Source: a virus
Reading direction: 5' to 3' (one strand)
Length of the DNA: 45,111 nt
IMG/VR virus record: IMGVR_UViG_3300010883_000073
Span: 1-45,111 of that record
Shown: positions 20,980 through 41,765 of the stretch, in pieces
Numbering within the stretch: position 1 is the first letter of the stretch
How the letters are laid out: the number at the start of each line of letters is the position of its first letter
Translations under genes and position numbers: made by a program
Notes under the pieces: generated by a model
The model's database searches: none
What the model was told of the DNA's origin: nothing
The model's input: only the letters and a program-made list of their open reading frames with translations

Positions 20980-21027
20980 CTGCTTATGCTCCTAACTGGG
21001 CGAATGTCATCAGAATATACGTATTCA

Positions 21028-24000
21028 TTACTCGAACGATACCCCGCTATTGGTTACTATAAAGTCGATTGCGATGAACTCAACCGCTCGGGTTGGTACA
21101 ACTACGATACGGCCGTTCATCTTGTTAGACTCGATATCTTCAGAATTATTGTTTGTGTCATCACAAACAACCCTGAATTGCTCCACCCCGGCTTGAGCTT
21201 GAACTAGCGCAAGAAGTGGTGTCACTTGATTTACGAATCTGGACCGGGTCGCTGAATTATTCTGCTCAAAGAGAAGTTTATTAGCAACGGCTGTTACCAA
21301 TCTCTTAACTTCTAACAGAAGTCTCCTAACATTGACTCTATCAAGAGCAGACTTAGCCATTTGAAGCGTCTTCTGTCCGAATATTACAAATCCACCCGAT
21401 GGGAAGACTGCAATCGGATTGATTCGTGCATCATATAGCGCGTCTCGATCTCCTGCGTTGAGTCGTACGTCAACATTCGCCACTGCGTCCAAGGCTCCTC
21501 GATTGAAGCCTGCAGGTGCGAACCATGGATACGCGACCTTATCGTTAAATGCCAAGGCGCCAAGTGCTACCACAGAGGGCGGTACTTTAACGTTCTGACG
21601 ATTAACAGGATCACTCAGATATACATCTGGGAAATACGTCGCGGTGTAATTATTATCTAATGCTCTTGACTCGAACTGCTCTGCGGATTCTCTTACGTCG
21701 ACCTTTTCTGAAGAGTCATCGAAGAGGCGCTTAGCATTCTTGTCATAATTGAGCATGTCCATCAAGTAGATTGCCATGCTGTAGTCTTTGCACTTATCCA
21801 TGGTGTAGTCTGTAATAAACGTGTCTCTCATTCCTGGGATGGCGAGGATGTTTATTCGGGACGACATCGGATCAGTCATAATGTCTACAGCGCTTCTAAA
21901 CGACTTGACGATATTATTTTTCTTGCCCTTGCCGGTAAGTGTTCCGTCATCAGTTCCCTTAATACCAAGGCCACCACTAAAGGAGTCTCCGGCTTTTCCG
22001 TCTGTGTCAGAAGAGGTTGCCTTATCTCTCATCAATCTATTATCTTGATCAAGAATGTTAAGGCCGTCATATCCTCCGTAAAACACCGTGCTGAACTTGC
22101 AGAAGTCTTGGAATCTATTGAAAACTGTTGAGGAAGAGTGAACCAGCGTAGCTAGTGTGATTCTTCCGGAACGAATTGTGTCATGAATTGTGTAATCAGA
22201 CGCATCAGGTACACCATTTCTAAGATAAGCTGCCTCGAGCATGTGGTCCTTAGCTGTACCAGTTACATCAGTAATATGTCCTGAAGTTAGCTGATTCTGC
22301 AATGCGACCCTGGCTAAAGTAAACTTGTTATTATTGAACAAGTCAGCACCCGAGCCTGTTACGAGTGTGTCGAGCTGCGAGATACCCTGGAACTTAGTGT
22401 ATGCTGATATCAGCGGATTGGGTGCAGAGCCAATGTTTGTATTGAGAACTGCTTCTGAAACAGATCCTTGATCTGCAGAAGAAGTGATTGGCAGTCTTTC
22501 GAACTTAACACCCCAGTAGAATCTGGAATCTACTCTCTCATTTGTACCAACCTGGCCCACTGCGAATGATGTTGCAGTTGCGATAGCACCTCGAGTGCAC
22601 TTAAATCTGAAGGGTAGCGGCGGGACAATTGAGCCGGACAAACCACCTGCAATGTCATTGCCTGCAATTAGCGTCATGCCGTGCAACCGCTCCGGGGCGT
22701 TACTGCCTACTGCATTATTGTCAGAATCTGAGAGGTTTGACCTGGCCGCGTCCGTAAGCGTATTAGATGTCTTAAGAACAGGGACACCGCGGAAACCGAA
22801 AGGAAGTGCTTCTTTTGGAGCTCTTCCTAGTTCCACATTGTCATGCATCATGATACGAATTCTAGAAGACTTATTCGGGTACTTACCCTGAATTACTAGA
22901 CGTCTTTCATCATCATTAGAGGCATCAAAGTTATAATAAACCTTCTTGTCACCGATCTTCCGTGCAACATAGTTCTCATGTGATGGATCAAGATTACATT
23001 CTGGGTAGTATTCTAGAACCTCTAGGTTCAAGTCAGTATCATCAAACCTGCGGATCTGGACGTCGAATGTTCCAAAAGGATCCCTAGGGTCTGAGGACTT
23101 CCGAAGATTCGCGATCGACACCTTAAACTTATTATTTGCGAATGTACCGTCAGTGATCGTTTCAAAGTGGAATAGATCATACTCAGAGTTACCAAACGGC
23201 TGAGAAATAATGGTTGGTGTTTTGGGTGTCTGGAATCTCGTGTCGTAACGACCGTATAGTGCTCGGTAAGCTGAGGTTGTGTCATATCCAGTAGTTGAGG
23301 TATTAGCAGACCCTGACATGAGAGCTACTGCGCCTGTCGCAGTGTTAACATGAGCAATTTCGTCTTCTACAGCGTAGTCCAAGTAAAGGAGATGCTCTTC
23401 TTCCTGGAATCTATCCGGATCTGTATTCAATACCTTAGAAATGTATCGTCCGCTATTAGGATCTAGAGAGACTTTATATAGTCTGACGCCGTCGAATGCC
23501 CCTTCTTTGGCAAAGTTTGCTCCCGAAGAAGACGTAAGTGCCAATTTGAAATAATTGTGACCAATACCGTCTGCATCACCAACAGAAGCAATTGAATTTG
23601 CTGCAGCAGTGTAAGCCTGGTTGTGGTCTAGAATCTCAAATCTAGATCCTGTAGCTGTAAAGAGAACAGCACGAACCAAGTTAACCTTGTCGTCGCCGGC
23701 TCTTTCTGAGAACGAATCGTTATCAGTGAAAATTGGGTAACCAGCATCCTGGCTTCCATTTCCATCAGCTCTTAAGTTATGGTTTGCAACAAGCATTTGT
23801 ACAGATCCTAAGTGGCCTGTACCTACGCCCGCATCGCCGGCAGCAATTGCGCTGCCAACTATCTTGAAACCTGCATTCTGGACGTAACCGCCCTGTGCTG
23901 TATTTGATCTATGATTGTCTGTTTCATTTGACCCAGCCCCTAAAACCCGAAGGAATGTTACTGAATTTTTATGCTTCAAAAATTCTCTGACTGCGTAAGG

Positions 24001-24198
24001 GCCAAATCGGTCTGAACTAAGAGATCCAAATTTGGTTTCAAAATCTGCTAAAGAGCCCACTGTTACTGGAACAAAGGCAGGCCCTTTGTCTGCTGTGCCT
24101 ATCACGCCCGCTGGGGTTCCGAGCGGAGTCGCGCGTCTTGCAGAAAGATCAATTTCCTGCTCAAAAAATCCTGGTGATCGGAATGTCTGCTCGGCCAT
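21028..24198 (-). CDS. 18: Tail sheath protein, first paralogue
   Basis: A 1056-residue gp18-family protein. It opens with FRSPGFFEQEIDLS, then GTPAGVIGTADKGPAFVP, almost the same layout as its neighbour. The C-terminal core also matches: YPWFAPAGFNRGALDAV, INPIAVFPSGGFVIFGQKTL, SALDRVNVRRLLLEVKRLV and RAVEFIAIDFIVTNSG. The middle regions differ much more than the ends. Sheath subunits surround the tube as a contractile helix; contraction drives the tube into the host. The ATG has CTAAGGAGATACTTTCG upstream, and a CAATACTTATCT motif lies about 35 nt before the start. It follows the gp15 gene after a 110-nt gap. The duplication makes a mixed, heteromeric or alternative sheath possible. Confidence 0.95.
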   Translation of the reverse strand: MAEQTFRSPGFFEQEIDLSARRATPLGTPAGVIGTADKGPAFVPVTVGSLADFETKFGSLSSDRFGPYAVREFLKHKNSVTFLRVLGAGSNETDNHRSNTAQGGYVQNAGFKIVGSAIAAGDAGVGTGHLGSVQMLVANHNLRADGNGSQDAGYPIFTDNDSFSERAGDDKVNLVRAVLFTATGSRFEILDHNQAYTAAANSIASVGDADGIGHNYFKLALTSSSGANFAKEGAFDGVRLYKVSLDPNSGRYISKVLNTDPDRFQEEEHLLYLDYAVEDEIAHVNTATGAVALMSGSANTSTTGYDTTSAYRALYGRYDTRFQTPKTPTIISQPFGNSEYDLFHFETITDGTFANNKFKVSIANLRKSSDPRDPFGTFDVQIRRFDDTDLNLEVLEYYPECNLDPSHENYVARKIGDKKVYYNFDASNDDERRLVIQGKYPNKSSRIRIMMHDNVELGRAPKEALPFGFRGVPVLKTSNTLTDAARSNLSDSDNNAVGSNAPERLHGMTLIAGNDIAGGLSGSIVPPLPFRFKCTRGAIATATSFAVGQVGTNERVDSRFYWGVKFERLPITSSADQGSVSEAVLNTNIGSAPNPLISAYTKFQGISQLDTLVTGSGADLFNNNKFTLARVALQNQLTSGHITDVTGTAKDHMLEAAYLRNGVPDASDYTIHDTIRSGRITLATLVHSSSTVFNRFQDFCKFSTVFYGGYDGLNILDQDNRLMRDKATSSDTDGKAGDSFSGGLGIKGTDDGTLTGKGKKNNIVKSFRSAVDIMTDPMSSRINILAIPGMRDTFITDYTMDKCKDYSMAIYLMDMLNYDKNAKRLFDDSSEKVDVRESAEQFESRALDNNYTATYFPDVYLSDPVNRQNVKVPPSVVALGALAFNDKVAYPWFAPAGFNRGALDAVANVDVRLNAGDRDALYDARINPIAVFPSGGFVIFGQKTLQMAKSALDRVNVRRLLLEVKRLVTAVANKLLFEQNNSATRSRFVNQVTPLLALVQAQAGVEQFRVVCDDTNNNSEDIESNKMNGRIVVVPTRAVEFIAIDFIVTNSGVSFE

Positions 24199-28536: not shown

Positions 28537-28568
28537 AAAAAAAAGGAGCGCCCTCGAAAGGGCGCCCC
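28537..28568 (-). terminator. Intrinsic terminator after the 212-aa structural gene
   Basis: Read on the minus strand: GGGGCGCCC pairs with GGGCGCTCC (9 bp, one G-U pair) around TTTCGA, followed by eight T. It lies about 31 nt past the stop of the 212-aa gene. Confidence 0.88.
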
Positions 28569-28599
28569 TAGATTAAAGAACTAAGTAGAAAACTTATGC

Positions 28600-29238
28600 T
28601 TATGCGGGTGCTGCTGATCCAGCATACTCAATAGTAACCATAACCCGGCCGGTTGTAGCCGTGTCTGCTGTGTTAGATGTGCCGTCAGAAGCAACATAGA
28701 GTGACGTCAATGCAGCAATATCGATATACTCACCGACTGATGGCAGACGAACCTCTGTGTCCCCTAGTGTATCTGAAGCATCACAACCCAGCGCTCCGGA
28801 GCCTTCAGCAGCGCCGCCGGCGCCAAGAATAACAGTACCGGTACCCACAACAGTTCCCTGAGCAGTGGCTGCTGTAGCTGACATTACCAATTGAACATCA
28901 ACAGCTGCAAGATCAGAAAGTGTTGTAACAGTCAATGCAGCCTTTAGAATCTTAGCATTGGCTGGAAGTGTTTTGCTAAGCTCACAAATAACACCGCTAT
29001 CTGTAGCATTAATAGCTCCCACCAAACTTACCTCTTCTTGATAAATATGGATACCTGCTTTTCCTGTATCACCACTTGATTTGTGGAATGAAACAACTTG
29101 TGGACTTCCCACTTTTCCGGCAGTTGCAGCACACTGACCTGCTCCTCGAAATGTAACTCCGCCCAGCGACTCAATAACGAGGCCCCGTCCGGAGGATTGA
29201 ACTAAACCTTTCTTGTCGGTTATCTTTACCTTTGGCAT
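28600..29238 (-). CDS. Putative capsid-associated (decoration-type) protein
   Basis: A 212-residue protein, rich in Ala, Gly, Thr, Ser and Val, with alternating short beta strands and almost no long helices. It starts MPKVKITDKKGLVQSSGRGL and ends in a strand, GRVMVTIEYAG. This composition and its position just after the major capsid gene suggest a virion surface or decoration protein, but I do not recognise a named family. The ATG has AGGAGAGAGATT upstream. A strong terminator follows the gene, and another precedes the gene two positions upstream, so these two small genes probably form their own transcription unit. High expression would fit such a setting. Confidence 0.65.
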   Translation of the reverse strand: MPKVKITDKKGLVQSSGRGLVIESLGGVTFRGAGQCAATAGKVGSPQVVSFHKSSGDTGKAGIHIYQEEVSLVGAINATDSGVICELSKTLPANAKILKAALTVTTLSDLAAVDVQLVMSATAATAQGTVVGTGTVILGAGGAAEGSGALGCDASDTLGDTEVRLPSVGEYIDIAALTSLYVASDGTSNTADTATTGRVMVTIEYAGSAAPA

Positions 29239-29692: not shown

Positions 29693-29724
29693 AAAAAAAG
29701 GGCGCCTCCGAAGAGACGCCCTTT
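29693..29724 (-). terminator. Intrinsic terminator after major capsid gene (UUCG loop)
   Basis: Minus strand: AAAGGGCGTCTC-TTCG-GAGGCGCCC then TTTTTTT. The stem has 9 bp with one G-U pair, extended by A-T pairs, and the loop is the very stable UUCG tetraloop. It lies about 27 nt after the capsid stop. Confidence 0.9.
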
Positions 29725-29750: not shown

Positions 29751-31655
29751 TTAGATGATGTTCATGTCGAGAACCGTAACGGAACCGTAGAAGTCACTTC
29801 GGACCATCTTCTTACCGTAACGAGTCATCACTCCCTTGCGGGGTGTGAAATCGTCAGGAGCGAAGATCGTTGGAGTAACAATCAGCGGTACATACGGAGC
29901 GTAAACATAACCTGTCTCGAGGTAACTTCCACCCTTGTAGCCAACGAGGATCTTGTTCCGTGGGAAGTAAGGATCCTTGTAGACCGTAAAGCGGTTGCTT
30001 AGAGCACCAACCTTTTCAGCACCGAGTGTCATAGGAGCAGAAACCTGTCCCTCGCCATCGAGACTGTAGATCGGCTTGTAGAAGATCGAAGACTCAAGGA
30101 TGGTTGCAACATCAGGTCCGACCACAATAAAGTTCGCGGAACCGCGAAGTGTCTTGCGATGAATCTGGTTAGCAGCATCAATGATTGTCTCAGTGAGAGT
30201 CTCATACCACTCACGAACCGTTCCAGCCCATGCGGGTCCGGGATGGATCGTACTTCCACGCTGTACCTCTGCGCCTGTCTCCTTGTTGACGAAACGTCCA
30301 GGAGCACGTGACCAATAGAGGTTAGCACCACCAGCCTGCATCAGGAGGTCGTTCAAGATCTCTCGATCGAGCTCTAGAGCAATCTGCTCGGATAGGATCT
30401 GAGTAAGCTCAACCTCAGCGTCGAGGCTGTGGTAAGCATTCAGGTCCTGAGCAAGCTCTGGAGTCCAGCGAGCCTTGAGCTTCCTGGTCTGCGCAGTAAC
30501 TGCGATCGACTCAATCTTGATATCGATCTCAGGGATGGTTGGATCCTCAGCTTCAAGGTTACGAGCGCTTGTCGCTGATTCGAATGCTGGTACGACGAGA
30601 GTATCGGCGTTTCCATCACTTGAGTCAAGACGTGAGCTAATAACGTATGAAACCGTAGTTAGTGACTCATCAGTAGTAGTCACGTGAGTTCCGGACAAGA
30701 CCATAAGGACATGTGCGTTGCTCGCTCCGGCATTTACCATTGGAGCAGAAGTAACTGTGCTACCTCCATCCCATGTAACCAGCTGATTCAACCTACGTAC
30801 GTTTAGAACACTACCACCCTGAATTGTTTCAGGGATAAGCGACAGAGACGTCTGAATGGTAACCCCAGTATCTGGAACAAGAGCTATATCCTTCACTAAT
30901 GTTGAATCAACGTTAGGGAAATTAGCTGTTGTAAACGGTACAGCAAGGAAGAAGAACTTCCCTTCTTCCTGCTCGATCAGATTAGTAATCTGTGGATCGA
31001 ACTGAAGAAGCTTGCCGTCTGTTCCAGTTGCATGACAATTATTGGTAAAGGCAGCATTACTTGACTGCGTGGTCCGAGTAGCATTTCCACCAAAGGTGAA
31101 TGCCTTAACCGTTGGGTTGTTTGCGCCCAACGCGGTGGTTGAATGCACACGAGTGTAACCTGATCCTGCAAGATCATACTGGCCACCTACGCCGAGAGAT
31201 CCGGACTGGATTCCCTTACCTACTGGGTTATTATAGATCGACTTACCGGTAGAGTAAGTACGACCACTATTTGTTCCACCAACAGCTGATCCGTAAGTGT
31301 AATCAAGATAGAAGAGCAGTCCCGAAGGAAGACTCATTGGCTGAATCGATACGAGATCGTTGGCAACTAGGCCACCGAATACGCGTCGAACGATTGGGAA
31401 TGCGACGTTTGTGAATCCACGAATATCGCCGCTGTCGACCAGACCTCCGCCACCGTTACCGAGGGATGAAACCTCTTTAAGTAGCTGAGATGCCTGATTT
31501 TCAAGCAGACGTGACATGTTTTCACGCTTAACGTCTTCTAGACCCCTGAGGAGTCCGGTACGAGACCATTTCTCCACCAGACGCCGGTTCTGAGATCCCA
31601 GGTGTCGTTCCCGGATACCCTCAGTCAACTGATCTAATGTAAAAGACTTAGACAT
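29751..31655 (-). CDS. 23: Major capsid protein (gp23 family)
   Basis: A 634-residue protein of the T4 gp23 group. Its N-terminus (FTLDQLTEGIRERHLGSQNR, then RLVEKWSRTGLLRGLED) is typical of far-T4 capsid proteins, followed by the capsid fold and the C-terminal part with LVGYKGGSYLETGYVYAPYV and KKMVRSDFYGSVTVLDMNII. T4 gp23 is cut by the prohead protease after Glu65; here L59-K60-E61 is the natural counterpart site for removing about 61 residues. It is about 110 residues longer than T4 gp23, with a beta-rich Gly/Ser/Thr segment at about 115-330 as the likely inserted domain. The start has AAAGGAGATAAAC upstream. It follows the scaffold gene and ends in a strong terminator, as expected for the most abundant virion protein. 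Confidence 0.93.
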   Translation of the reverse strand: MSKSFTLDQLTEGIRERHLGSQNRRLVEKWSRTGLLRGLEDVKRENMSRLLENQASQLLKEVSSLGNGGGGLVDSGDIRGFTNVAFPIVRRVFGGLVANDLVSIQPMSLPSGLLFYLDYTYGSAVGGTNSGRTYSTGKSIYNNPVGKGIQSGSLGVGGQYDLAGSGYTRVHSTTALGANNPTVKAFTFGGNATRTTQSSNAAFTNNCHATGTDGKLLQFDPQITNLIEQEEGKFFFLAVPFTTANFPNVDSTLVKDIALVPDTGVTIQTSLSLIPETIQGGSVLNVRRLNQLVTWDGGSTVTSAPMVNAGASNAHVLMVLSGTHVTTTDESLTTVSYVISSRLDSSDGNADTLVVPAFESATSARNLEAEDPTIPEIDIKIESIAVTAQTRKLKARWTPELAQDLNAYHSLDAEVELTQILSEQIALELDREILNDLLMQAGGANLYWSRAPGRFVNKETGAEVQRGSTIHPGPAWAGTVREWYETLTETIIDAANQIHRKTLRGSANFIVVGPDVATILESSIFYKPIYSLDGEGQVSAPMTLGAEKVGALSNRFTVYKDPYFPRNKILVGYKGGSYLETGYVYAPYVPLIVTPTIFAPDDFTPRKGVMTRYGKKMVRSDFYGSVTVLDMNII

Positions 31656-31690: not shown

Positions 31691-33325
31691 TTACTTGTTT
31701 CCTGCGATTCCTGCAAGAACAGCCCATCGATCTACCTCAACACCATTTTTTGCCGGCTGAGCCGACCGCGTTGATCTGGAAGACGAACCGATTGTCCGTA
31801 GCGTTTTGCCCTCGCGCAGAGAGCGAGTTTTCCCCTTATCAAGGGAAGCGGTTAAGCTCTTGTAGAGGAGCTTGGCCTCGCGGAGCGTCTTGGCATTATC
31901 TAGAGCCTCAACAATTGCCCGCTGTTGTTTCTGTGAAAGATTTCTATTTTGCATGAGCTTGTTTGCGTAAAGAAGCTTAGCATTAAAAAGATTCATCTCT
32001 GTGAGCTGTCCCTTCAAAGCATGCGTTGCCTTCTTGTACTCGACCAATTGTCGAGCCATGGCACGGACCTTTCTGGTCTCACTGATTCTTCCTCGCCTGC
32101 GGCGACGGGATTCTGGCATAGCGTCTCCGCCTGCTGGACGTCCACCGACATCGGGGTTGGGTGCATCACCAAGTTCATCCGCGAGAGCATTCAAGAGAGA
32201 ATCCTCGTCCACATCAACAAATTCCTCATCTTCGACGTCTCCGCCTCCGAATGAATCAGCTGACTGTGAAGGATCTTCAACCCCTGAAGTCTCTTCTGCT
32301 AATCTACGCATGCGCTTGAGTTCACGACGGAGCATGTTTTCATCGATCTCATAGACTTCGTCCATATCGAGCTCGAGGTCATCTCCACCGTCTAATTCGG
32401 CTTCATCGCCATCTTCTTCTGCACCTTCGTCGTCCTCAGCGCTTAATACGCTTACATCGAGAGCGGAAACATCAGCCTCTTCTGGATCTTCGACTCCGAG
32501 AGCCTCTAGATCCTCGTCCGCGAGGACGATATCAAGCTCGTCGAGAGCTCGACGTCCAGATTGCTGATTCCCTTCTGCCTCGAATAGGAAGTCGAAGATG
32601 TTCCTGTTGTTTCGCCTTGACATTATTTTCATCTCCTTAATGATTGAATCAATTCTTGCTTTTTCCAGGATAACACCACCTGTATCCTGCTCAGTAAGTA
32701 TTACTTGGCGACGCAAAATGACTGCCTCTCTTGCAAGAGATTCGAAAATCTTTGCCGCCTTTAGTTTATGTGACCTAGCGCCACGCTTCTTTGCAAACTT
32801 AAAACCTTTTTTGAAAGATTTTATCCTCTGCTCCAATAATGATACACGACCCTGTAGCTTCTTCCTGCCGGAATTGCTGCTAGCAACCATTCTTGCTAAG
32901 GCTTCAGCTACCTGATCATCCATCAAAACTTCTTCACCCTCTGCGTTCCCGGAGGCGTCAACCTCGATGCTTACTTCGCCCACATCAATTGAAAGACCGC
33001 CAGATGGGTCGATGTGGAGATCAGCACCAGGTGCCTCAACGGAAGCGGCGTCTGGGTCCATTGTTACAGGCGCGGGTGGTAATTCTTCTGAAGAGAGTGC
33101 GTCGAGATCAACGGTTACTGACTCGGCGTCAGCCATTTCCGGGTCTACGCCTGGCACTAATTCTTCCATTTCTTCTTCATCTGTCTCACCGAGGAGTTGC
33201 TGCTCGATCAAACTTCTAATACGGGGCGTAACAGCATCTATTATCTTGTTCTTGGCATTTTCTTCTGCCATATCACGCAATAGACGTGCTTCTGCAATTG
33301 CTTCTTCGTAAAGATTTTGGCTCAT
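31691..33325 (-). CDS. 22: Prohead core scaffolding protein (gp22-like)
   Basis: A 544-residue protein in the scaffold position directly before the capsid gene. It has an N-terminal helix (YEEAIAEARLLRDMAEENAK), a very acidic stretch (about 50-155), a basic helical section (about 150-215), a second acidic block (about 265-390) and a basic C-terminal helix set (ALKGQLTEMNLFNAKLLYAN, then NKLMQNRNLSQKQQRAIVEA) that resembles the C-terminal part of T4 gp22. Scaffold proteins fill the prohead and are destroyed by the gp21 protease; several I/L-x-E sites occur, including I-A-E at 10-12. T4 gp22 is about 270 residues, so this one is doubled in size by the acidic blocks. The start has AAGAGAGACCGCAC upstream, with a TCATATTTATAGTCA motif about 40 nt before. 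Confidence 0.85.
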   Translation of the reverse strand: MSQNLYEEAIAEARLLRDMAEENAKNKIIDAVTPRIRSLIEQQLLGETDEEEMEELVPGVDPEMADAESVTVDLDALSSEELPPAPVTMDPDAASVEAPGADLHIDPSGGLSIDVGEVSIEVDASGNAEGEEVLMDDQVAEALARMVASSNSGRKKLQGRVSLLEQRIKSFKKGFKFAKKRGARSHKLKAAKIFESLAREAVILRRQVILTEQDTGGVILEKARIDSIIKEMKIMSRRNNRNIFDFLFEAEGNQQSGRRALDELDIVLADEDLEALGVEDPEEADVSALDVSVLSAEDDEGAEEDGDEAELDGGDDLELDMDEVYEIDENMLRRELKRMRRLAEETSGVEDPSQSADSFGGGDVEDEEFVDVDEDSLLNALADELGDAPNPDVGGRPAGGDAMPESRRRRRGRISETRKVRAMARQLVEYKKATHALKGQLTEMNLFNAKLLYANKLMQNRNLSQKQQRAIVEALDNAKTLREAKLLYKSLTASLDKGKTRSLREGKTLRTIGSSSRSTRSAQPAKNGVEVDRWAVLAGIAGNK

Positions 33326-33360
33326 GTGCGGTCTCTCTTAATGATTGTATGAGTCGTTCG

Positions 33361-33376
33361 TGACTATAAATATGAC
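33361..33376 (-). promoter_or_regulatory. Recurrent motif GTCATATTTATAGTCA upstream of scaffold gene
   Basis: It lies about 40 nt before the scaffold ATG. The opposite (plus) strand reads TATAAATA at 33365-33372, the exact T4 late promoter box, but pointing away from the gene. Orientation and function are therefore unresolved. Confidence 0.3.
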
Positions 33377-33397
33377 TTTTCTACTCATTTTATCTTT

Positions 33398-33652
33398 TCA
33401 ACGTTTGTTCTTTCTATCCTGGCTTTTATTTTCGATGTCTGTTTGCTCTTTAAGCTGCTTTGATCGATGTCTGGCAGCACCTTGTTTTTTCTTCCGACGC
33501 CTCTTTTGTGACTTAGTTTCGAAAATTAAAGAATCCTTGTACTCTTTAATAATCCCAGACTTCTTACACTTACGTATGAATAATTTGATCAACTGCTCTG
33601 ATGATCTTATTCTACCGCCTAATTCGACAGAAACATTTATCGGTTTCGACAA
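33398..33652 (-). CDS. Ribosomal protein bS21 homologue
   Basis: A short, very basic protein. From the TTG at 33652 it has 84 residues: SKPINVSVELGGRIRSSEQL, then IKLFIRKCKKSGIIKEYKD, and a Lys/Arg-rich tail with KRRRKKKQGAARHRSKQ. The pattern 'x-V-x-V ... A-L-x-x-F-K-R-x-C-x-K-x-G-I ... R-R-x-F-Y-E-x-P-x-x-K-R-R-x-K ... A-x-x-R' is that of bacterial bS21 (about 70 residues), a protein of the 30S platform near the anti-Shine-Dalgarno region. I chose TTG 33652 because AGGTG sits 5 nt upstream and the start is 8 nt after the preceding gene's stop; a TTG at 33706 in the same frame is the longer alternative. It lies in the head cluster, between a small head gene and the scaffold gene. Phage bS21 genes are known in large and marine phages. 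It may alter host translation. Confidence 0.82.
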   Translation of the reverse strand: MSKPINVSVELGGRIRSSEQLIKLFIRKCKKSGIIKEYKDSLIFETKSQKRRRKKKQGAARHRSKQLKEQTDIENKSQDRKNKR

Positions 33653-33660
33653 CCTAACAC

Positions 33661-34278
33661 CTACTCTAAACCTTGTTGGATACGTCTGTCTTTGAGGATA
33701 TCCCAAATACTCATTATACCCTTACTTTCTTCGTTTTCTGCATCAATAGCGACTTTGTCATGAGGCTTTGACCAACCTTTCTTTGTGCCGCCGATCGTGC
33801 CTGTCTTAAGCGTTATATAAGAAGCGCCTCCACCGGAGCCTTTCGGAGCATTCTGCCATATCCCGGGCTTTGGGACCATTGAACTTTTTGATACTCCAAT
33901 TTCTGCCAAAACTTTATCCGGCCTGGTGAAACAATCAGAAAGTTTAGTATTTCCGGCCACAAAGTAAAACGGATCCGTCTTGGCATAGTCACCTGGATCC
34001 AATGTTTTTGATGTATACGTTTTATCAGCAACTAACTCTGATTGTTCTGTTTCTTGTTCTGTGTACTCTAAGTCTTCGTATGGATCAGGGTCAACATACG
34101 GAAAGCTAGTATTAGACATTCGCTGCCGATGCTTGTCATTAAACGACTTTCCGTAGCCTAAATCATGTCTAGAGTCTTGCGGACCAGACGTAGTTCCTCT
34201 AGAGACAGTAAGCGCGATTTCTCGTATGAGATTTTTTAGTAATTCAGATTCCATACAGCCATTATGAACTAGAGCCAT
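33661..34278 (-). CDS. Head-region protein of unknown function
   Basis: A 205-residue frame from ATG 34278; the start may instead be the ATG at 34254, giving 197 residues that open with MESELLKNLIREIALTVSRG, a helix similar in style to other small head proteins in this cluster. The longer form overlaps the preceding gene by 17 nt and neither start has a strong ribosome site. The body is hydrophilic, with acidic DPDPYEDLEYTEQETEQ and a Gly-rich KGSGGGASYITLKTGTIGGT section. No known domain is recognised. It sits just before the bS21 gene. Short I-R-E near the N-terminus could be a gp21 cleavage site. Structural or head-internal role is inferred from location. Confidence 0.6.
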   Translation of the reverse strand: MALVHNGCMESELLKNLIREIALTVSRGTTSGPQDSRHDLGYGKSFNDKHRQRMSNTSFPYVDPDPYEDLEYTEQETEQSELVADKTYTSKTLDPGDYAKTDPFYFVAGNTKLSDCFTRPDKVLAEIGVSKSSMVPKPGIWQNAPKGSGGGASYITLKTGTIGGTKKGWSKPHDKVAIDAENEESKGIMSIWDILKDRRIQQGLE

Positions 34279-34891
34279 CGGAATGTGGCATTGGCTCTGA
34301 ATTAGAGCCTAAGAGGCCGGTCTGTCTTGTTACACCGGATGTTGATGAATCGAATAGAGACCTAGCATGCTCACGAACCTTAGTTGATTGGTTAAGTGGG
34401 CTATTCGCTGATGCGTCGGAAGACATACCTCTCATTGGTGCCCTTGACGTCTTATTATCAACAGGGTCGACCGGAATGACATTAGCATATTCTGTATAAT
34501 CAGCACCCGGAACAGATGCTACTTGAGGTGTAAAGGGTCCGCCAACACCATAGCCCGACTCTTGAGTTACTTCAGCACCCACGTCGGGGGCGCCGCCGTT
34601 AGGCTTACCATCAGCGACATACTCCCTTGAAAGAACATCAAATCCCCAATAAGCAGCCGCGCCGGTGGCAAGAGCAGTCTCCTTTGTAAGGTCACCCTCT
34701 AAAACTAATTCTTCAAATGCCTGAACAGGGTTATATGCCGGTTCTGATATCGGAAGAAGCGGCGAAGCAGGATAAGCAGCTGCAATTCTGTCCTTATTCT
34801 GCTTCGCGCCTTGTGCGGTGCCGTTATTGGAAATAATACTATCTGACTGAGGTTCAGTTTGATTAATAGTATTTGTTTGAAGCCTTGCCAT
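34262..34891 (-). CDS. Head-region protein, paralogue of the next upstream gene
   Basis: A 209-residue, Pro/Gly/Ser/Ala-rich protein, probably extended or loosely folded. Its middle (FEELVLEGDLTKETALATGA, then GGAPDVGAEV and GVGGPFTP) lines up with the 159-aa protein directly upstream (WQTMVLDGP, then LGAPDPAAEV and LPASAFVPNP), so the two look like diverged copies. The Pro/Gly-rich low-complexity body suggests a virion or core protein. It starts 11 nt after the upstream gene's stop and its end overlaps the next gene if that gene uses its longer start. No catalytic motif or membrane segment is seen. I cannot name it further. Confidence 0.62.
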   Translation of the reverse strand: MARLQTNTINQTEPQSDSIISNNGTAQGAKQNKDRIAAAYPASPLLPISEPAYNPVQAFEELVLEGDLTKETALATGAAAYWGFDVLSREYVADGKPNGGAPDVGAEVTQESGYGVGGPFTPQVASVPGADYTEYANVIPVDPVDNKTSRAPMRGMSSDASANSPLNQSTKVREHARSLFDSSTSGVTRQTGLLGSNSEPMPHSDGSSS

Positions 34892-34902
34892 CTAGTGTGC
34901 CT

Positions 34903-35382
34903 TTACTCAGATGAGTTTTTACCCAAGATATACTCACCTAGAGTATGAGCAGAAATCCGCTCGGAAGCCTTCTTCGGTGAAAGTTGTGATCCAACTCCGC
35001 TGCCCCATGTATCGGCAGGTGTCTGACCAAATCCCTCGGGAGGCTCAGGTATATCAGATGGGTTATGACTTCCAGGGCCAGGTGATGCTGGGTTGGGAAC
35101 GAATGCGCTGGCTGGAAGGCCACCACCTCCGGTCTCGACCTCGGCAGCCGGGTCAGGAGCGCCTAAGTAGTTAGGTTCATACACACCAAATGTGTGTCCC
35201 CCATCATTAATAGGTCCATCTAATACCATAGTTTGCCAAGCTTCCCGACGCTCCTCATCTGTGAGCTCTTCTGCGTAAATCGGTGAAGCAGCGAAACACT
35301 GCTTGAGACCATTCATATCTGATCTTCCCATAAAACGTTCTGTGACTGGTGCTTCAACGGTTACTTGCTTGTGCTTTGGCAT
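34903..35382 (-). CDS. Head-region protein, Pro/Gly-rich, paralogue of neighbour
   Basis: A 159-residue protein. It begins with a short basic stretch, then an amphipathic part (DEERREAWQTMVLDGP), followed by a Pro/Gly/Ser-rich section (LPASAFVPNPASPGPGSHNP) and a short C-terminal helix (ISAHTLGEYILG). It shares the GAPDxxAEV and following Gly/Pro layout with the 209-aa protein that follows. The ATG has TTAGGAGATAAAC upstream. Its position between the small basic-acidic protein and the paralogue suggests a shared structural role in the head. Function unknown. Confidence 0.62.
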   Translation of the reverse strand: MPKHKQVTVEAPVTERFMGRSDMNGLKQCFAASPIYAEELTDEERREAWQTMVLDGPINDGGHTFGVYEPNYLGAPDPAAEVETGGGGLPASAFVPNPASPGPGSHNPSDIPEPPEGFGQTPADTWGSGVGSQLSPKKASERISAHTLGEYILGKNSSE

Positions 35383-35397
35383 TGTTTATCTCCTAAA

Positions 35398-35682
35398 TTA
35401 TCCTAGACGTCGAGTAACTCTTGAGCGAATTTTCTTCTTCGCCTCTTGAATTCTCTTCATCTTTGCCTTGAGTTTTCTCTCTTGAATCTTAAGTACCTTC
35501 ATGAAGTCGATGTCTTTGGCGATGGTATCTGCTTCTTCGCCTGCATCTGTTTCTTCAGCATCAACCTTTTCGGGGTCATCTATGCCGGCTTCAATTGGGT
35601 CATTCTCTCTAATGATGCGACGCTTCTCTTCTAAAACAATTTTTCTAAGAAGGCGCGGTGTTAGCTTACGAATTTTTGACAT
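35398..35682 (-). CDS. Small charged coiled-coil protein, possible prohead core component
   Basis: A 94-residue, almost entirely helical protein: basic N-terminus (SKIRKLTPRLLRKIVLEEKR, then IIREN), an acidic middle (about 28-52) and a basic, coiled-coil C-terminus (KVLKIQERKLKAKMKRIQEA). Size and charge pattern are like the small T4 core proteins gp67 and gp68, but there is no reliable sequence match. The ribosome site is AGGAGATTTAGTA before the ATG. It lies among small head genes between the protease and scaffold genes. An I-R-E at residues 24-26 could be cut by the gp21 protease. Confidence 0.62.
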   Translation of the reverse strand: MSKIRKLTPRLLRKIVLEEKRRIIRENDPIEAGIDDPEKVDAEETDAGEEADTIAKDIDFMKVLKIQERKLKAKMKRIQEAKKKIRSRVTRRLG

Positions 35683-35764
35683 TACTAAATCTCCTGGGTG
35701 TCCGTCGACGAACTGTTTGGTCCATTACTACATATTCACGAGCGATAAAATCTTCTATATCCAT
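35666..35764 (-). CDS. Possible 32-residue ORF in the gap
   Basis: In the 88-nt gap after the 138-aa gene, a frame from ATG 35764 to TAA 35666 encodes 32 residues (MDIEDFIAREYVVMDQTVRR, then RTPRRFSNVKNS). It begins 6 nt after the upstream stop and overlaps the start of the next gene by 17 nt. The ribosome site is weak. It may be a real mini-protein with an acidic head and basic tail, or just a chance frame filling the spacer. Confidence 0.3.
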   Translation of the reverse strand: MDIEDFIAREYVVMDQTVRRRTPRRFSNVKNS

Positions 35765-35770
35765 TTAGAC

Positions 35771-36187
35771 TTAAGACTTCTTTGAAGGACTATTAAATGC
35801 AAGTGCTGCCCAATTCTGTGCAGCATCATCACCGAAGACTTGGGTTAAGTCAGCGCCAGGTGCAGCAGTCTCTGTCATAGAGGCTTGCCCAGGGGCTGAT
35901 TCATTTGACAGCTGGTCTTGATAAGTTCCTCTTGCTGTGTCTTCAAACAAAGATGCCATCATTGGATCATCTGTCAAAGCCGATACATTTTTAGTAACAG
36001 CTTTATTAAAATTGGGATTATCATCAGAGCCCTTGGGCCTGGATTTTCTTGGTCGAGGTGTGGGAGAGGATAAAACTCTTGACTCACTTAGCTGGCTGCT
36101 AGAAGAATTTTCTAAACCTTCAGCAAGAATTTCAACTAAGCATTCTTTGACAATTTGTTTTAGATCATCTCTTTTTAGCTTAGCCAT
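35771..36187 (-). CDS. Head-region protein with a capsid-targeting-like N-terminus
   Basis: A 138-residue protein. The first 23 residues form an amphipathic helix (MAKLKRDDLKQIVKECLVEI, ending LAE), the rest is Ser/Pro/Gly/Ala-rich and weakly structured until the C-terminal AQNWAALAF. The end of the helix, L-A-E, fits the (I/L)-x-E cleavage pattern of the gp21 protease encoded two genes upstream. Its ATG overlaps the TGA of the preceding gene (TGATG), so translation is probably coupled. A prohead core or internal head protein is the likely role. No domain is recognised. Confidence 0.65.
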   Translation of the reverse strand: MAKLKRDDLKQIVKECLVEILAEGLENSSSSQLSESRVLSSPTPRPRKSRPKGSDDNPNFNKAVTKNVSALTDDPMMASLFEDTARGTYQDQLSNESAPGQASMTETAAPGADLTQVFGDDAAQNWAALAFNSPSKKS

Positions 36188-36621
36188 CAGGTTCCTCCGA
36201 CTCCATCAATTGTTGCTATGTCCGGGAACATATCACGCTGAATTCCTGTAAGGCCTGCATGCACGTATATTGTCTGGGGATTCGCGCTCGCGTAGACTAA
36301 CATATCTTTACACTTTAATTCGAAAGACATGTGTGTGCCTGCAGGTATTAGAAAAATATTCTTCCCTGCTCTGGACGATCCTACCGCTGGGGCAACCATT
36401 CCGGTGCTGCCGTAAGCGATCCAAAATTTAGCTGAACTATATACTGTTATCCATCTAGAAACGTATGGAAATTTAACAGTTTTAGCCAAGACAGTATCTG
36501 TGCCTGATTCTGCTGTGTCGTCTAACGCAGAGCTGTTGACGATCTGTAGTGTAAAGGGAATCCCTGATTGCTGGTATTCCCCTACATGATTGTGGTGTGA
36601 CTTTGGTGCATGTAAGGACAT
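36187..36621 (-). CDS. Small beta-rich protein beside protease gene
   Basis: A 144-residue protein with a His-rich N-terminus (SLHAPKSHHNHVGEYQQSGI) and alternating beta strands (WITVYSSAKFWIAYGS, FELKCKDMLVYAS), suggesting a compact beta-sandwich. It begins 3 nt after the protease stop with a GGAGG ribosome site inside the protease gene. The layout could suit a capsid accessory or vertex-associated protein, but I do not recognise a family. It is co-transcribed with the protease and with the 138-aa head protein that overlaps its stop. Confidence 0.62.
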   Translation of the reverse strand: MSLHAPKSHHNHVGEYQQSGIPFTLQIVNSSALDDTAESGTDTVLAKTVKFPYVSRWITVYSSAKFWIAYGSTGMVAPAVGSSRAGKNIFLIPAGTHMSFELKCKDMLVYASANPQTIYVHAGLTGIQRDMFPDIATIDGVGGT

Positions 36622-36624
36622 CGC

Positions 36625-37233
36625 TTACTTTTCCTCCCAATTCAAAATATCATTGAAAATTCTATCAATACGATCAGAGCGAGTAAAGTGTCTATTCAAA
36701 TCATTTTCGCTAATTTCTCTTCCCTCACGCATCATAAAAGCTCCCGGGGTGGAAGGCTCTGAGACAAAGTCCCAGCAAATTAATTGAAAATCGTCCTGAA
36801 CAACTTGGTAGTCGCCATCTTGTTTTGTTGATCCCACACCCCTGGAAGAAATTCCTAGAGTTACGCCGGATTCTACCAGGCTTTGCAAAATCTGGCCTGA
36901 TGGGGTATCTAAAAGTTCTACTGATCCGTAGCAAACGTCCCCTTCCATAAAAGCTTCACGAACAATATGAGATGCGTTCTTGAGCTCTACTACAGATGAG
37001 TCTGGATGATCACATTCGCCGAGGGCTCTGTTTTCTTCAATAAACTTTTGATAGTTTCTTATTTCTCTTTCGAGAATTGGCTGTGGATATATTCTGCCAT
37101 TCTGATTAAGTGTGTCTGCCTTTTGCAAGACACCCTTCAGCACAATTTTTCCGGCATTCTGCTTTTTAGACTCTTCGATCATCTCTTTGGAATAATCGAA
37201 AGCTAACCACTCAGTTAGAAGTTGCTTATTCAT
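36625..37233 (-). CDS. 21: Prohead maturation protease (gp21 family)
   Basis: A 202-residue protein (from ATG 37233, preceded by GGAGGAAAGTA; an earlier in-frame start at 37260 lies upstream of this ribosome site and is unlikely). It shows the T4 gp21 serine-protease motifs: GECDHPDSSVVEL with the catalytic His (H76) and LGISSRGVGS with the probable nucleophile Ser (S129/S130). A PSTPGAF segment near 160-166 follows the usual family pattern. The protease is activated inside the prohead, cuts scaffold, capsid and internal proteins after (I/L)-x-E, and destroys itself. It overlaps the preceding gene by 8 nt. The order portal, unknown, protease, scaffold, capsid is as in T4. Confidence 0.92.
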   Translation of the reverse strand: MNKQLLTEWLAFDYSKEMIEESKKQNAGKIVLKGVLQKADTLNQNGRIYPQPILEREIRNYQKFIEENRALGECDHPDSSVVELKNASHIVREAFMEGDVCYGSVELLDTPSGQILQSLVESGVTLGISSRGVGSTKQDGDYQVVQDDFQLICWDFVSEPSTPGAFMMREGREISENDLNRHFTRSDRIDRIFNDILNWEEK

Positions 37234-38086
37234 TACTTTCCTCCGCAAGCTCAGTCCCAAGCTTGATAGTTGTCAAGAATCTTGCGACATTTTCGTCAGA
37301 TATGTTATCTGTGTCGAGAGAACGAACTGCTTCTAAAACTAACGGTACCTTCTTGAGGCTGTATGTGCTTGTGCAATTTCTTTCATATGCTTGAATAAGA
37401 GAAACCACATCCTCTTTTTGTTCTTGCATCAGAGACTTTGCAATACTGCCGTCTCCTGTCTCTTTGCTAAAGACCATTTCTCGTATTAGTGATCTCTGGT
37501 TCTCTGTTAAAGTCATGCCGTATCGTTTATTAAACTTTTCTCGCATAATCTTAACAGTAAGTTTATCAATATCATTAGACCTCAAGTCCTCAAGATCAGT
37601 AACACTCTTCTCAGTTATAAGCCACGAATGAATTTTATCTTCATAAAGCGCAACTCTTTTGATATCAGCACCCGGGGCTTTTCTCCAATCATTTAGCAAT
37701 GTTTGAATTGTAGCATAGGTTCTATAGCTTTCAATTCTTGTTGAGTAAAAACTATCGTCATCAAGAGTATGATTGATCTCCTTTATAAGGCGAGATTTTT
37801 CTTTCCGAAGCATTGCCGCGTCGTGGTCCTGGGCTGCGTTCTTTGCTTCAGACAAAATCCTGGTGGCAATCGAATCAGAGCTGACTGTTGTTTTAACTAG
37901 AGCATTGAACAATCGGAATTCTTTATAAAGCTCTGTCTTCTTCTTAAAATTGTTTTTAAGGATATCCAGTACAAGGTTTGCACGATTCATATCTCCATCG
38001 ACAAGTGCCTCAGATACTTTTCGTACTAATTGCTCATAGATGATTCCCACGTTTCTTTTTTTATTATGTGATTTACTCATCGTCAT
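37226..38086 (-). CDS. Helical protein in the gp67/gp68 position, function unknown
   Basis: A 286-residue, mostly helical, basic protein between portal and protease. The start overlaps the end of the portal gene by 14 nt (MTMSKSHNKKRNVGIIYEQL); ATG 38080 two codons on is an alternative. Segments such as VLDILKNNFKKKTELYKEFR and MTLTENQRSLIREMVFSKET suggest a helical bundle. Much larger than T4 gp67 or gp68 (about 80-140 residues), so not a simple homologue, though it occupies their place. It may be a core or portal-associated assembly factor. No catalytic or metal-binding motif is seen. Confidence 0.7.
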   Translation of the reverse strand: MTMSKSHNKKRNVGIIYEQLVRKVSEALVDGDMNRANLVLDILKNNFKKKTELYKEFRLFNALVKTTVSSDSIATRILSEAKNAAQDHDAAMLRKEKSRLIKEINHTLDDDSFYSTRIESYRTYATIQTLLNDWRKAPGADIKRVALYEDKIHSWLITEKSVTDLEDLRSNDIDKLTVKIMREKFNKRYGMTLTENQRSLIREMVFSKETGDGSIAKSLMQEQKEDVVSLIQAYERNCTSTYSLKKVPLVLEAVRSLDTDNISDENVARFLTTIKLGTELAEESNE

Positions 38087-40118
38087 CTGGACTCACTAAA
38101 TCTGAGAGATTAAACTCAATTGGTTCCTCATCTTCTGTAGATGCTTCACTAAGTATGGTACTACGATGTATACCTATGGAGCTATCCATCTTACTTAACG
38201 CTCGCTCAACATCTCTGGTCATTCTAGTATGATATTTTATGCCATCATCCAAAAATTCTTCTACAACATCATTTCTCGGAAGCATAGATTCCCTGAATCT
38301 TTTAGACTTCGTTTTAGCACCCAGGGGATTCTTGATAAAATCATCGTCGAACGGCTTATTTAGGGTGTCTTGTGTTCGTCCGGCCTTACCTACAGACACC
38401 ATTTTGGCCAAGTCGGGCATTGCCAAGGCTTCAGCACCTGCTGTTACTTTTCGACTCTTTTGGATTGGTTCGTTAAATATGTTCCTAATCTTTTTCTGAG
38501 CTTTTATCGGGGCTTCGGTGTCGGCTATCGAGAGCCTTCCGTGAATATCATCATCATCTTCTTCCTCTTCTTCCAAGTCTTCGCGGTCTTTTCCATCTTT
38601 GGCAGGCTCAGCGGTAAGAAGCTTTCCGTCTTTGGTGTCAGATGCGAAAAGGCCGCCGTCGTCGTCCGCGGGTGGTTCATCACCTCCAGCTTCGTCACCT
38701 CCGCCGCCTTCGGCAGCGGCTGAGCCAGCTTCAACAGCCTTATCCTCGTCGGTATCTGCAATTCTTTCATCAATTAAGCTAGCAATTTGTTCCTCAGTCA
38801 TTTCCAAAATTTGCTTTCTAATATATGTTCGGCTAACAAGACCTTCTGGTGCAGAGCCGGCAATTTCAAATCTTGCGCGCACCAGTTCTAGTTTTTGTTG
38901 CTGAGCAATTGAGGAAGGGTTTGATAGCTTAATCTCAAAATCAATGAGATCTTCGCCTTCATACCCGTGAGAGTAAAGATGAATCATGGCCAGTTTATTC
39001 AACTCAGCGATTACAGTCTTTTGAATTCTAGAAATTGATCTTGAAAACCGAATATCTTCTTGAGCCAGTGTCGCTTTAGAACCCACGTCCTCGTCATATC
39101 CTAGATATGCTTTTGGAATTTTGAGTGCTGCAAATAGCTTTTTCTGAATATACTCTACATCCTCAATAGCGGCTGTATTTTGGCCGCCGGCCAATGTCTC
39201 GATTTTTGTTCCGGATTCGCCGCCGCGTACGGGAAGAAAATAATCTTCGTCTACTGAGAGCGGGTTATACCGCAAGTCTACCTTTCCTGTGTCTTTGTCA
39301 ACAATCTGATTTCTCTTAAGACTCGTCTGTGCCTGCTCTAGATAGTTTGCGACTTCTTCAGGAGGAACGTTGCCCACATCAATGTAGAAAACACGACGTT
39401 CAGGCGCGCGTATGACTCTATAGACTAACATGGCATCTTCAATAAGAATAAGTTGACGCCAAATTCTGCGCGCGGCCTCTAAAACTGAAGAACCATACGG
39501 AAGAAATGAGTCATTACCTAAAAGACGAAAATGAGAAAGTTGCCAGTTTTCTAATATTTGGTTCCCCTGTGTTATCCATCTGTAGCGAACTGCTAAAGGA
39601 TCATCCGGGTCGAAGCCTTCTTCTCTCTCAATCTCAGAAATTGATATAGGGAATGCATTTATCACACCAAACTCAGGCGATATGTCATTAAACAAAAAGA
39701 AATCGCCGTATTTGCAGAGATTTCGTACCCACATAACAAGATTAAATTCAACATTTAGAGTTTCGTAAAAAAGTTGATCTAAAAGCTCTTGAAGTTTTCT
39801 ATTCTCTGAATATATGTGTAACACTCGACCTTTATCGTCAGGTGAAACTGTTTCTTCTGCATAGATGTCTAACGCACTTGCAATCTCAGGGGTTGCTTCC
39901 ATTTCAGAAAAGTCACTATATCGTGACATCCTATCAAATGCGCCATAAGATGACAATGTACTATTATACACATCACTATGCGCTCGCTTAAAAACTTCTT
40001 GCGCTGTTGAAGTCGACCCTACTTTGCTTGATTGGCCCCTGACCCGTCGCTTTATAACCGGACCGGAACGAAATAGCTTAGTAAGCCTTACAAAAAGATT
40101 TGGGTTCTTTCCAGCCAT
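38073..40118 (-). CDS. 20: Portal protein (gp20 family)
   Basis: A 681-residue protein matching the T4 gp20 portal family. Typical sections include RMSRYSDFSEMEATPEIASA (63-82), LCKYGDFFLFNDI, RAPERRVFYIDVGNVPPEEV and the central IPKAYLGYDEDVGSKATLAQ. Portal forms the dodecamer at one vertex through which terminase drives DNA and to which the neck binds. The extra C-terminal part (about 465-540) is a very acidic, Gly/Glu/Asp-rich linker, then a helical C-terminus; T4 gp20 has 524 residues. The ATG has AGAAGGTGAAAC upstream, 54 nt after the terminase stop. The stop overlaps the next gene by 14 nt. Confidence 0.93.
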   Translation of the reverse strand: MAGKNPNLFVRLTKLFRSGPVIKRRVRGQSSKVGSTSTAQEVFKRAHSDVYNSTLSSYGAFDRMSRYSDFSEMEATPEIASALDIYAEETVSPDDKGRVLHIYSENRKLQELLDQLFYETLNVEFNLVMWVRNLCKYGDFFLFNDISPEFGVINAFPISISEIEREEGFDPDDPLAVRYRWITQGNQILENWQLSHFRLLGNDSFLPYGSSVLEAARRIWRQLILIEDAMLVYRVIRAPERRVFYIDVGNVPPEEVANYLEQAQTSLKRNQIVDKDTGKVDLRYNPLSVDEDYFLPVRGGESGTKIETLAGGQNTAAIEDVEYIQKKLFAALKIPKAYLGYDEDVGSKATLAQEDIRFSRSISRIQKTVIAELNKLAMIHLYSHGYEGEDLIDFEIKLSNPSSIAQQQKLELVRARFEIAGSAPEGLVSRTYIRKQILEMTEEQIASLIDERIADTDEDKAVEAGSAAAEGGGGDEAGGDEPPADDDGGLFASDTKDGKLLTAEPAKDGKDREDLEEEEEDDDDIHGRLSIADTEAPIKAQKKIRNIFNEPIQKSRKVTAGAEALAMPDLAKMVSVGKAGRTQDTLNKPFDDDFIKNPLGAKTKSKRFRESMLPRNDVVEEFLDDGIKYHTRMTRDVERALSKMDSSIGIHRSTILSEASTEDEEPIEFNLSDLVSPDDDE

Positions 40119-40172: not shown

Positions 40173-41765
40173 CTAAAGCAGCCAACTCATATCACCGTAC
40201 GGACTATTACTTCCGCTTGTTGTAAAATGTTCTGCCTCATACGGCTTGAAGGGGTTATAATTCCTCGAAGCCCATGGGTTTTTAATATGGTCATGACCTC
40301 TTCCGTTGACACTAAAGCCCTCTAACATTGCTTGATTGAGATCATATGAATGTTTGCTATGCACGGGAGATGTATCGTACAACCAAATGCCGATTGCCAA
40401 TGCCATCATCAAGTCATCGTTTCGACCTTTTTGAGCTTGAGCTTTGTTACCTCTCCATATAAATGTCTTAGCTTCAGCATAAAGACGAGAAGAGTAAGTT
40501 CTAATCTCTCTATTTCTTATAACCTGCTCAAGCTTTGTTAATATTTGATTTCTAGACTGCCCTGTAGTGGCGAATCCAATTTTTCCAAGTTCAACCTCTC
40601 CCAGGCCGTAAAGTGCCGCGAATCTATCCTTCTCATTTTTGAAGTATAAGTTCTTGTACTCTAGATCCCTGAGCTTCATTATGACAGCGTACCCATATGT
40701 GTTGTTCTCTGGACATACTAAAGCTTCATTGTATCGCTTTCCGGCTTCAGCTAGCAGCGTTGCAAATTGATCTGGTGGTACTTTGCCCTTGAATTCAGCA
40801 ACAACTTCTGACGCCCCTGTATCAATCACATGAAACGTACTGTAGTCACCTGAGTCTCCTCTGGACACGTCCGCAGAAATGATATACTGGTGCTCTGTCA
40901 GCGCGTACTTCCACACCCATACTCCCATTTCAGGACCCCATCGATCCATGGGCTTCTTTATATTTGCACCTAGCCACTCTATGTCCTCTGAGCTAAGAAC
41001 TGTGTCACCCGAAGCAGAGAAATCACACAAAAGCTCCTGTGCTACTTGCTTTTTTGATAAATTCTTTGACTCGCTGGCAAACCAATCTTCACCGTGTTCA
41101 GGATGCACATCCCATGGAAGCTTAATAGGGTTAAATAAATTTTCGCCAGCTTCTGCTTTTATCCATAGATCGTGATATTGACCGCCTACACCATTGGGGG
41201 TTGATAGAATAATTGCTCGACCACCTGTTGAAAGTGTAGGATAGAGTCCGGTAAATAGATCATCAAAATTTCTAACAAATGCCGCCTCATCTACAATTAG
41301 AAGAGACAAAGCTTCAGACCGGCCTGCATCATCAGATGTTGGCACAGCTTTTATTACTGACCCATTCGAAAATTCTACGGCCTGCTTATTATTTCCAGTG
41401 ATCTCAGGCATCAGCAGCCACTTTGGCATACTTCTAAGCGCAACTTTGACTTTTCTTATAAAGTTCTGTGCAACCGCAAGCTTAGTTGCAATAACAAGAA
41501 TACTTTTATCCTTATAGAAGGCTGCCAGCCATACAGCATAGGCAGCAGTCAGTGTCGAGATCCCAAGCTGACGTGACTTAAGAATAATATTGAATCGATG
41601 ATCATTAAAGTCTTGTACACACTCATCCTGGAAGGGGTATGTATTAAAATCAATCAACCCTCGTGTTGGGTGCTGGATCTTTAAGTACTTCTTCATAAAG
41701 TACACAGGATCTTTGCCACAACGCACTATCTCTTTGATCTGACGCTGTTTACTAGTGACTGACAT
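40173..41765 (-). CDS. 17: Terminase large subunit (gp17 family)
   Basis: A 530-residue ATPase/nuclease. The Walker A-type loop is SRQLGIST (64-71), the Walker B is LLIVDEAAF (155-163, D159-E160), and a coupling motif LSTPNGVGG follows. The C-terminal nuclease has a first acidic site in YIISADVSRGDSGDYSTF and the final NDDLMMALAIGIW pair. The enzyme packs DNA through the portal and cuts it at head filling. The start overlaps the stop of the preceding gene by one base (TAATG), so translation is probably coupled. I see no small terminase (gp16) in the window; the 124-aa gene upstream does not look like one. Confidence 0.95.
   Translation of the reverse strand: MSVTSKQRQIKEIVRCGKDPVYFMKKYLKIQHPTRGLIDFNTYPFQDECVQDFNDHRFNIILKSRQLGISTLTAAYAVWLAAFYKDKSILVIATKLAVAQNFIRKVKVALRSMPKWLLMPEITGNNKQAVEFSNGSVIKAVPTSDDAGRSEALSLLIVDEAAFVRNFDDLFTGLYPTLSTGGRAIILSTPNGVGGQYHDLWIKAEAGENLFNPIKLPWDVHPEHGEDWFASESKNLSKKQVAQELLCDFSASGDTVLSSEDIEWLGANIKKPMDRWGPEMGVWVWKYALTEHQYIISADVSRGDSGDYSTFHVIDTGASEVVAEFKGKVPPDQFATLLAEAGKRYNEALVCPENNTYGYAVIMKLRDLEYKNLYFKNEKDRFAALYGLGEVELGKIGFATTGQSRNQILTKLEQVIRNREIRTYSSRLYAEAKTFIWRGNKAQAQKGRNDDLMMALAIGIWLYDTSPVHSKHSYDLNQAMLEGFSVNGRGHDHIKNPWASRNYNPFKPYEAEHFTTSGSNSPYGDMSWLL

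Follow-up and report, generated by a model that had tools for sequence, protein, structure and literature searches.

A ribosomal protein bS21 homologue with a non-AUG start codon among the head genes of a virus

The 45,111-base record of a T4-like virus analysed here (the window) carries, among its head genes and on the same minus strand, a short gene at 33398..33652 that encodes an 84-residue homologue of ribosomal protein bS21 from a TTG start codon. Its membership in the homologous Ribosomal_S21 family is secure, and the gene has the prohead protease block on its upstream side and a scaffold-like gene downstream, after which the major capsid gene follows. The original prediction had singled out this placement as worthy of attention, but it is not new, since structural genes were found within ten genes of bS21, the protease most often, in 388 of 900 bS21-bearing phages (Chen et al., 2022; PMC9723584). 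The case is real and largely ordinary, and what the window and its relatives add to the known kind are refinements, namely a deeply conserved same-strand gene order, a patchy absence of bS21 at a fixed junction, a non-AUG start codon that is kept, a particular Shine-Dalgarno context and a candidate promoter. We hold it to be moderately probable, taking the proposal as a whole, that the phage protein would be co-expressed with the head genes, would substitute for host bS21 on the 30S subunit and would bias translation towards phage late mRNA.

The head cluster is encoded throughout on the minus strand. The gene for the terminase large subunit TerL (40173..41765; Pfam Terminase_6N, E 1.1e-15; PHROG 2) and the portal gene gp20 (38073..40118; Pfam Portal_T4, E 3.9e-80) are followed by a conserved gene with no assigned function (37226..38086), which has homologues in the Microcystis phage Mel-JY01, in the Flavobacterium phage immuto and in many contigs, and whose family is found in almost every relative at this site between the portal and protease genes. 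The prohead protease gp21 (Peptidase_S77; 36625..37260; Pfam E 2.4e-26) and five small genes in an order conserved in relatives (34262..36621, comprising 36187-36621, 35771-36187, 35398-35682, 34903-35382 and 34262-34891) lead towards bS21; for the three of these five that were searched, no family match above chance was found in Pfam or PHROG. Directly upstream of bS21 lies a further small gene (33661..34278, with its likely ATG at 34254), homologues of which occupy the same place in the related loci L002, L010, L023, L034, L090-L092 and L094. On the other side stands a gene of 544 residues in the gp22 position (31691..33325), acidic with a basic C-terminal part and directly before the major capsid gene gp23 (29751..31655; Pfam Gp23, E 3.6e-76); it matches no Pfam or PHROG family and owes the name scaffold-like to its position and to its homologues in relatives. 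The gene map agrees with the site originally described for bS21, which is flanked by a small head gene and the scaffold-like gene, all in one direction; the terminase, portal, protease and capsid genes are all within ten genes of it. The scaffold-like gene is a single ORF in the window and two overlapping ORFs (6316-6699 and 6690-7892) in L002:6316-7892, where a frameshift, an assembly error or recoding could account for the split.

The assignment of the ORF to bS21 draws on Pfam, PHROG, an AlphaFold2 model and a shuffle control. The Pfam profile Ribosomal_S21 (PF01165) matches with 30.7 bits (E 2.6e-7), above its curated gathering score of 27, PHROG 21469, 'ribosomal protein S21', matches with an E-value of 7.9e-5, and every one of the 24 sequences matched in the PDB at E-values up to 1 is a bS21 chain (the best at 4.9e-4). 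An HMM built exclusively on E. coli bS21 and on phage lineages other than the window's gives the window protein 59.8 bits, and because the same HMM reaches at most 14.0 bits on 2000 composition-preserving shuffles of that protein, the match is ruled out as an artefact of basic composition. The AlphaFold2 model, based on an alignment of 29 viral sequences from the window and IMG/VR only, has a pLDDT of 88 and places helices at residues 18-32, 34-42 and 47-83. When it was searched against the PDB, 13 of the 16 matches, the top 13, were bS21-type chains from the small subunits of chloroplast and mitochondrial ribosomes, the best of them with TM scores of 0.63/0.79 and an rmsd of 2.0; the single E-values of these fold matches are weak, as expected given a short helical chain, but their consistency is strong. 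The identification as a bS21 homologue, originally proposed from the basic motifs of an ORF whose position, strand, TTG start and motifs proved exactly as stated, was thus confirmed by Pfam, PHROG, the phage-lineage HMM and the predicted fold. Purifying selection on the gene is seen between the window and L002 (pS 0.65, pN 0.20).

Homology is to be kept apart from equivalence to bacterial bS21, which we do not regard as secure. The window protein has the fold and the helix 1 core in common with bS21 of E. coli, chloroplasts and Flavobacterium, and its R61-H62 align with E. coli R55-H56, whereas its basic tail is longer and the inter-helix motif EKP[ST] is degenerate. This motif, intact in many other phage bS21 proteins, reads ETKS or ETKG in most of the window's clade, and it is for this reason that equivalence is in doubt. 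The equivalog cut-off of NCBIfam TIGR00030 is narrowly missed (26.7 vs 28.95 bits), and together with the replaced motif this could point to altered ribosome binding. In a gapless alignment with what we take to be the Flavobacterium bS21 reference sequence, the position of Tyr54 corresponds to Ala60 of the window protein.

The TTG at 33652 begins 8 nt past the stop of the preceding gene, and the longest version of the ORF opens further upstream at a TTG at 33706. In L002 a stop codon leaves just one TTG, aligned with that at 33652, so that 33652 is likely the true start and 33706 is unlikely. The start codon is TTG in the window and in L002 and GTG in L090, L092, L093 and L094, and none of these has an ATG that could serve instead; a non-AUG start is thus common to six phages with the window counted in, and the codon of L091 is ambiguous. 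Head genes adjoining bS21 in the same clade start with ATG almost without exception. More distant phages of the window's clade differ in the bS21 start, L019 having ATG, and in the separate mid clade the start is also GTG in L084, L103, L104, L106, L115 and L117. Since the codon appears to have switched between TTG and GTG without turning into ATG, a weak start may be preferred, which among such related rows is suggestive only. The weak start codon noted in the original prediction is in any case retained in relatives as TTG or GTG.

Shine-Dalgarno sites of the window genes are strong, with a mean of -6.2 kcal/mol vs -1.1 kcal/mol at mock positions (p about 1e-6). As Bacteroidia ribosomes do not use strong Shine-Dalgarno sites (PMC9976891) such as are present here, and as Tyr54 is missing, the host is probably not a member of the Bacteroidia. 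The intergenic stretch of 72 nt that separates bS21 from the scaffold-like gene (33326..33397, minus strand) holds a candidate promoter, the conserved AT-rich CATATTTA at 33367-33374, which sits 42-49 nt before the scaffold start codon in a region that is shared by L002 and, in part, by L010, L019, L091, L093 and L094. The mid clade has ACTATTTAT as its equivalent, and these AT-rich motifs precede the scaffold starts by about 35-50 nt. When loci are compared, TATTTA is enriched at -65 to -25 ahead of the scaffold gene (15/46), the portal gene (13/42) and the gene after the portal (14/55), with a shuffle significance that is overstated as the rows are related, and it is rare or absent ahead of bS21, protease, terminase and capsid genes. 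Judged by sequence, CATATTTA looks like a promoter of the scaffold-capsid unit, and the AT-rich motif is possibly a lineage-specific late promoter. Given this candidate promoter, bS21 may be the last gene of an upstream unit and lie outside the scaffold-capsid unit. Of the original placement of bS21 inside a morphogenesis operon, the part that holds is the position among head genes on their strand; membership in one operon with the genes that follow is called into question by the CATATTTA motif. A T4-type late promoter sequence, TATAAATA at 33365-33372, was rejected since it faces away from the genes and its two copies per window match the chance expectation. A strong terminator-like hairpin with a T-run lies just past the capsid gene (29697-29724), and a similar hairpin is found in the gap 28539-28602.

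Relatives were collected in two IMG/VR scans, one that used the capsid protein, so that bS21 played no part in it, and one that used bS21, which together gave 141 loci. Wherever bS21 is present in these loci it shares the strand of the head genes, precedes the scaffold-like or capsid gene and, if the locus includes a protease gene, comes downstream of it; the same-strand order protease-bS21-scaffold-capsid is repeated in dozens of IMG/VR contigs as well as in Mel-JY01, and in the mid clade several genes often intervene between bS21 and the scaffold gene. By hand count, the capsid-driven loci that span the interval contain bS21 in 12/12 cases in the mid clade and in 3/13 in the window's clade, and the capsid tree together with a record search puts its absence at about half of the window's clade. 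In L023, the nearest bS21-free relative (capsid 74% identical), the upstream gene is joined to the scaffold gene by ~90 nt that hold no bS21; no convincing copy elsewhere was found in the records of bS21-less relatives, which are fragments, and immuto has no bS21 either. The 55-row capsid tree has bS21 in three deep clades, and its well-supported branches force at least 5 state changes, a count that does not tell gain from loss. The bS21 tree is broadly concordant with the capsid clades (4 changes, with a minimum of 3 and a shuffled mean of 24.5), and because it tracks them, long co-inheritance of bS21 and capsid would fit, although its 76 columns resolve little. A tree including bacterial bS21 from a second genome scan places bacteria and phages on two sides with a support of only 52, too low to decide for or against one common origin of the phage genes; when genomes were scanned with the bS21 of the window's clade, no bacterial relative was found. 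Searching phage records by tblastn with bS21 of the window and of two relatives gave no matches, for which divergence and low-complexity masking are probably responsible; with the Mel-JY01 protein as the query, isolates were recovered. A different location is seen in L007 (LR756508.1:169725-169877), an uncultured phage of 484 kb in which a related portal gene is followed ~20 kb downstream by bS21.

Several known systems resemble the window in part. As in the freshwater Bacteroidetes phages of Chen et al., bS21 is near the terminase, portal, prohead protease and capsid genes, and for lake phages that study reported late co-transcription of bS21 with capsid and structural genes and proposed that the protein substitutes into ribosomes (PMC9723584). 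In its clades a-e, however, bS21 is on the strand opposite to the structural genes, whereas it is on the same strand in the window and its relatives, and the phages of that study have Bacteroidetes hosts and keep an aromatic residue at Tyr54, in contrast to the Ala60 and the strong Shine-Dalgarno sites of the window. Mel-JY01 (PP395634), in which the protein is annotated as RpsU, has portal, protease, bS21 and capsid genes in the window's order and strand at 37% capsid and 40% portal identity, but its bS21 starts with ATG, keeps the proline in an IKPS motif and is several genes before the capsid gene; a literature search on this phage found no paper. The T4-like Pelagibacter phages HTVC008M and Mosig EXVC030M carry a phage bS21 as the window does, yet near sliding clamp, clamp loader and DNA polymerase genes and not near head genes, and the HTVC008M protein was incorporated into E. 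coli 70S ribosomes (PMC6375957). In Vibrio phage 2.275.O the gene for RpsU3 belongs to a translation cluster with IF-3 and an L7/L12-like gene, and the 16 kb shown around it include no head gene.

According to the proposal that we favour, phage bS21 would be expressed together with the head genes, at a synthesis rate kept below theirs by its non-AUG start together with a Shine-Dalgarno site of modest strength. Late in infection it would replace or supplement host bS21 on the 30S platform, adjoining the anti-Shine-Dalgarno end of 16S rRNA, and the ribosomes that carry it would favour initiation on phage late mRNAs with strong Shine-Dalgarno sites. Homology, the predicted fold, the conserved position, purifying selection, the weak start and the strong Shine-Dalgarno sites are its observed basis, from which we infer late timing, 30S incorporation and a bias to phage mRNA for the window phage. 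Counting against it are the replaced motif and the missed equivalog cut-off, the absence of bS21 from about half of the clade and an in vitro E. coli system in which ribosomes with HTVC008M bS21 made GFP at about 5% of the normal level (PMC6375957). The latter result could also be read as host shut-off, the phage protein entering ribosomes mainly to depress or reshape host translation and not to favour phage mRNA, and the loss of the conserved EKP motif in the window's clade would agree with this; we nevertheless think it unlikely, as a gene among late head genes would depress virion synthesis too and as the published loss may, according to its authors, reflect incompatibility with the E. coli ribosome (PMC6375957).

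In another reading the very basic window protein, encoded next to the scaffold-like gene, would be a repurposed nucleic-acid-binding head protein that is carried inside the capsid or belongs to the scaffold core, for delivery to the next cell or for assembly; Chen et al. also mention encapsidation as possible (PMC9723584). The retained bS21 fold and core, however, make this quite unlikely, as do the half of the clade that builds heads without bS21, so that it is not a required head part, and the distance of several genes from the scaffold gene that is frequent in the mid clade. Replacement of host bS21 lost or damaged in infection, or evasion of a defence acting via bS21, with mRNA choice unchanged, would suit the patchy presence as a host-dependent need; we know of no defence that targets bS21, and we regard this reading as improbable, even though initiation on natural mRNAs needs bS21 (PMC6375957). 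That the gene is a relic or neutral passenger, as its frequent absence from relatives might suggest, is scarcely credible in view of purifying selection, its deeply conserved position and its presence in each of the 12 mid-clade contigs of the capsid-driven scan that span the interval. A more elaborate reading, which we hold improbable, would have the non-AUG start kept by selection as a control point and bS21 as a long-established, vertically inherited resident of the head cluster that tunes its own level and the late switch, since initiation at its own weak start would depend on the bS21 of the ribosome; the autoregulation of rpsU in Flavobacterium (PMC9976891) is comparable, here with a host that uses Shine-Dalgarno sites. 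Of wider interest is that phage bS21 is here linked to late head genes in phages with strong Shine-Dalgarno sites, where its effect on mRNA choice could be simpler to test than in Bacteroidetes, and that its patchy presence at one junction supplies natural pairs with and without the gene, such as the window and L023, for the study of its function.

Elsewhere in the window, two tail sheath genes stand in tandem at 17917-24198 (1020 and 1056 residues, each with the sheath C-terminal domain), and an ORF at 1048-2274 (408 residues, GTG start), which may be truncated or split, matches DNA polymerase A apart from the first part of the domain profile.
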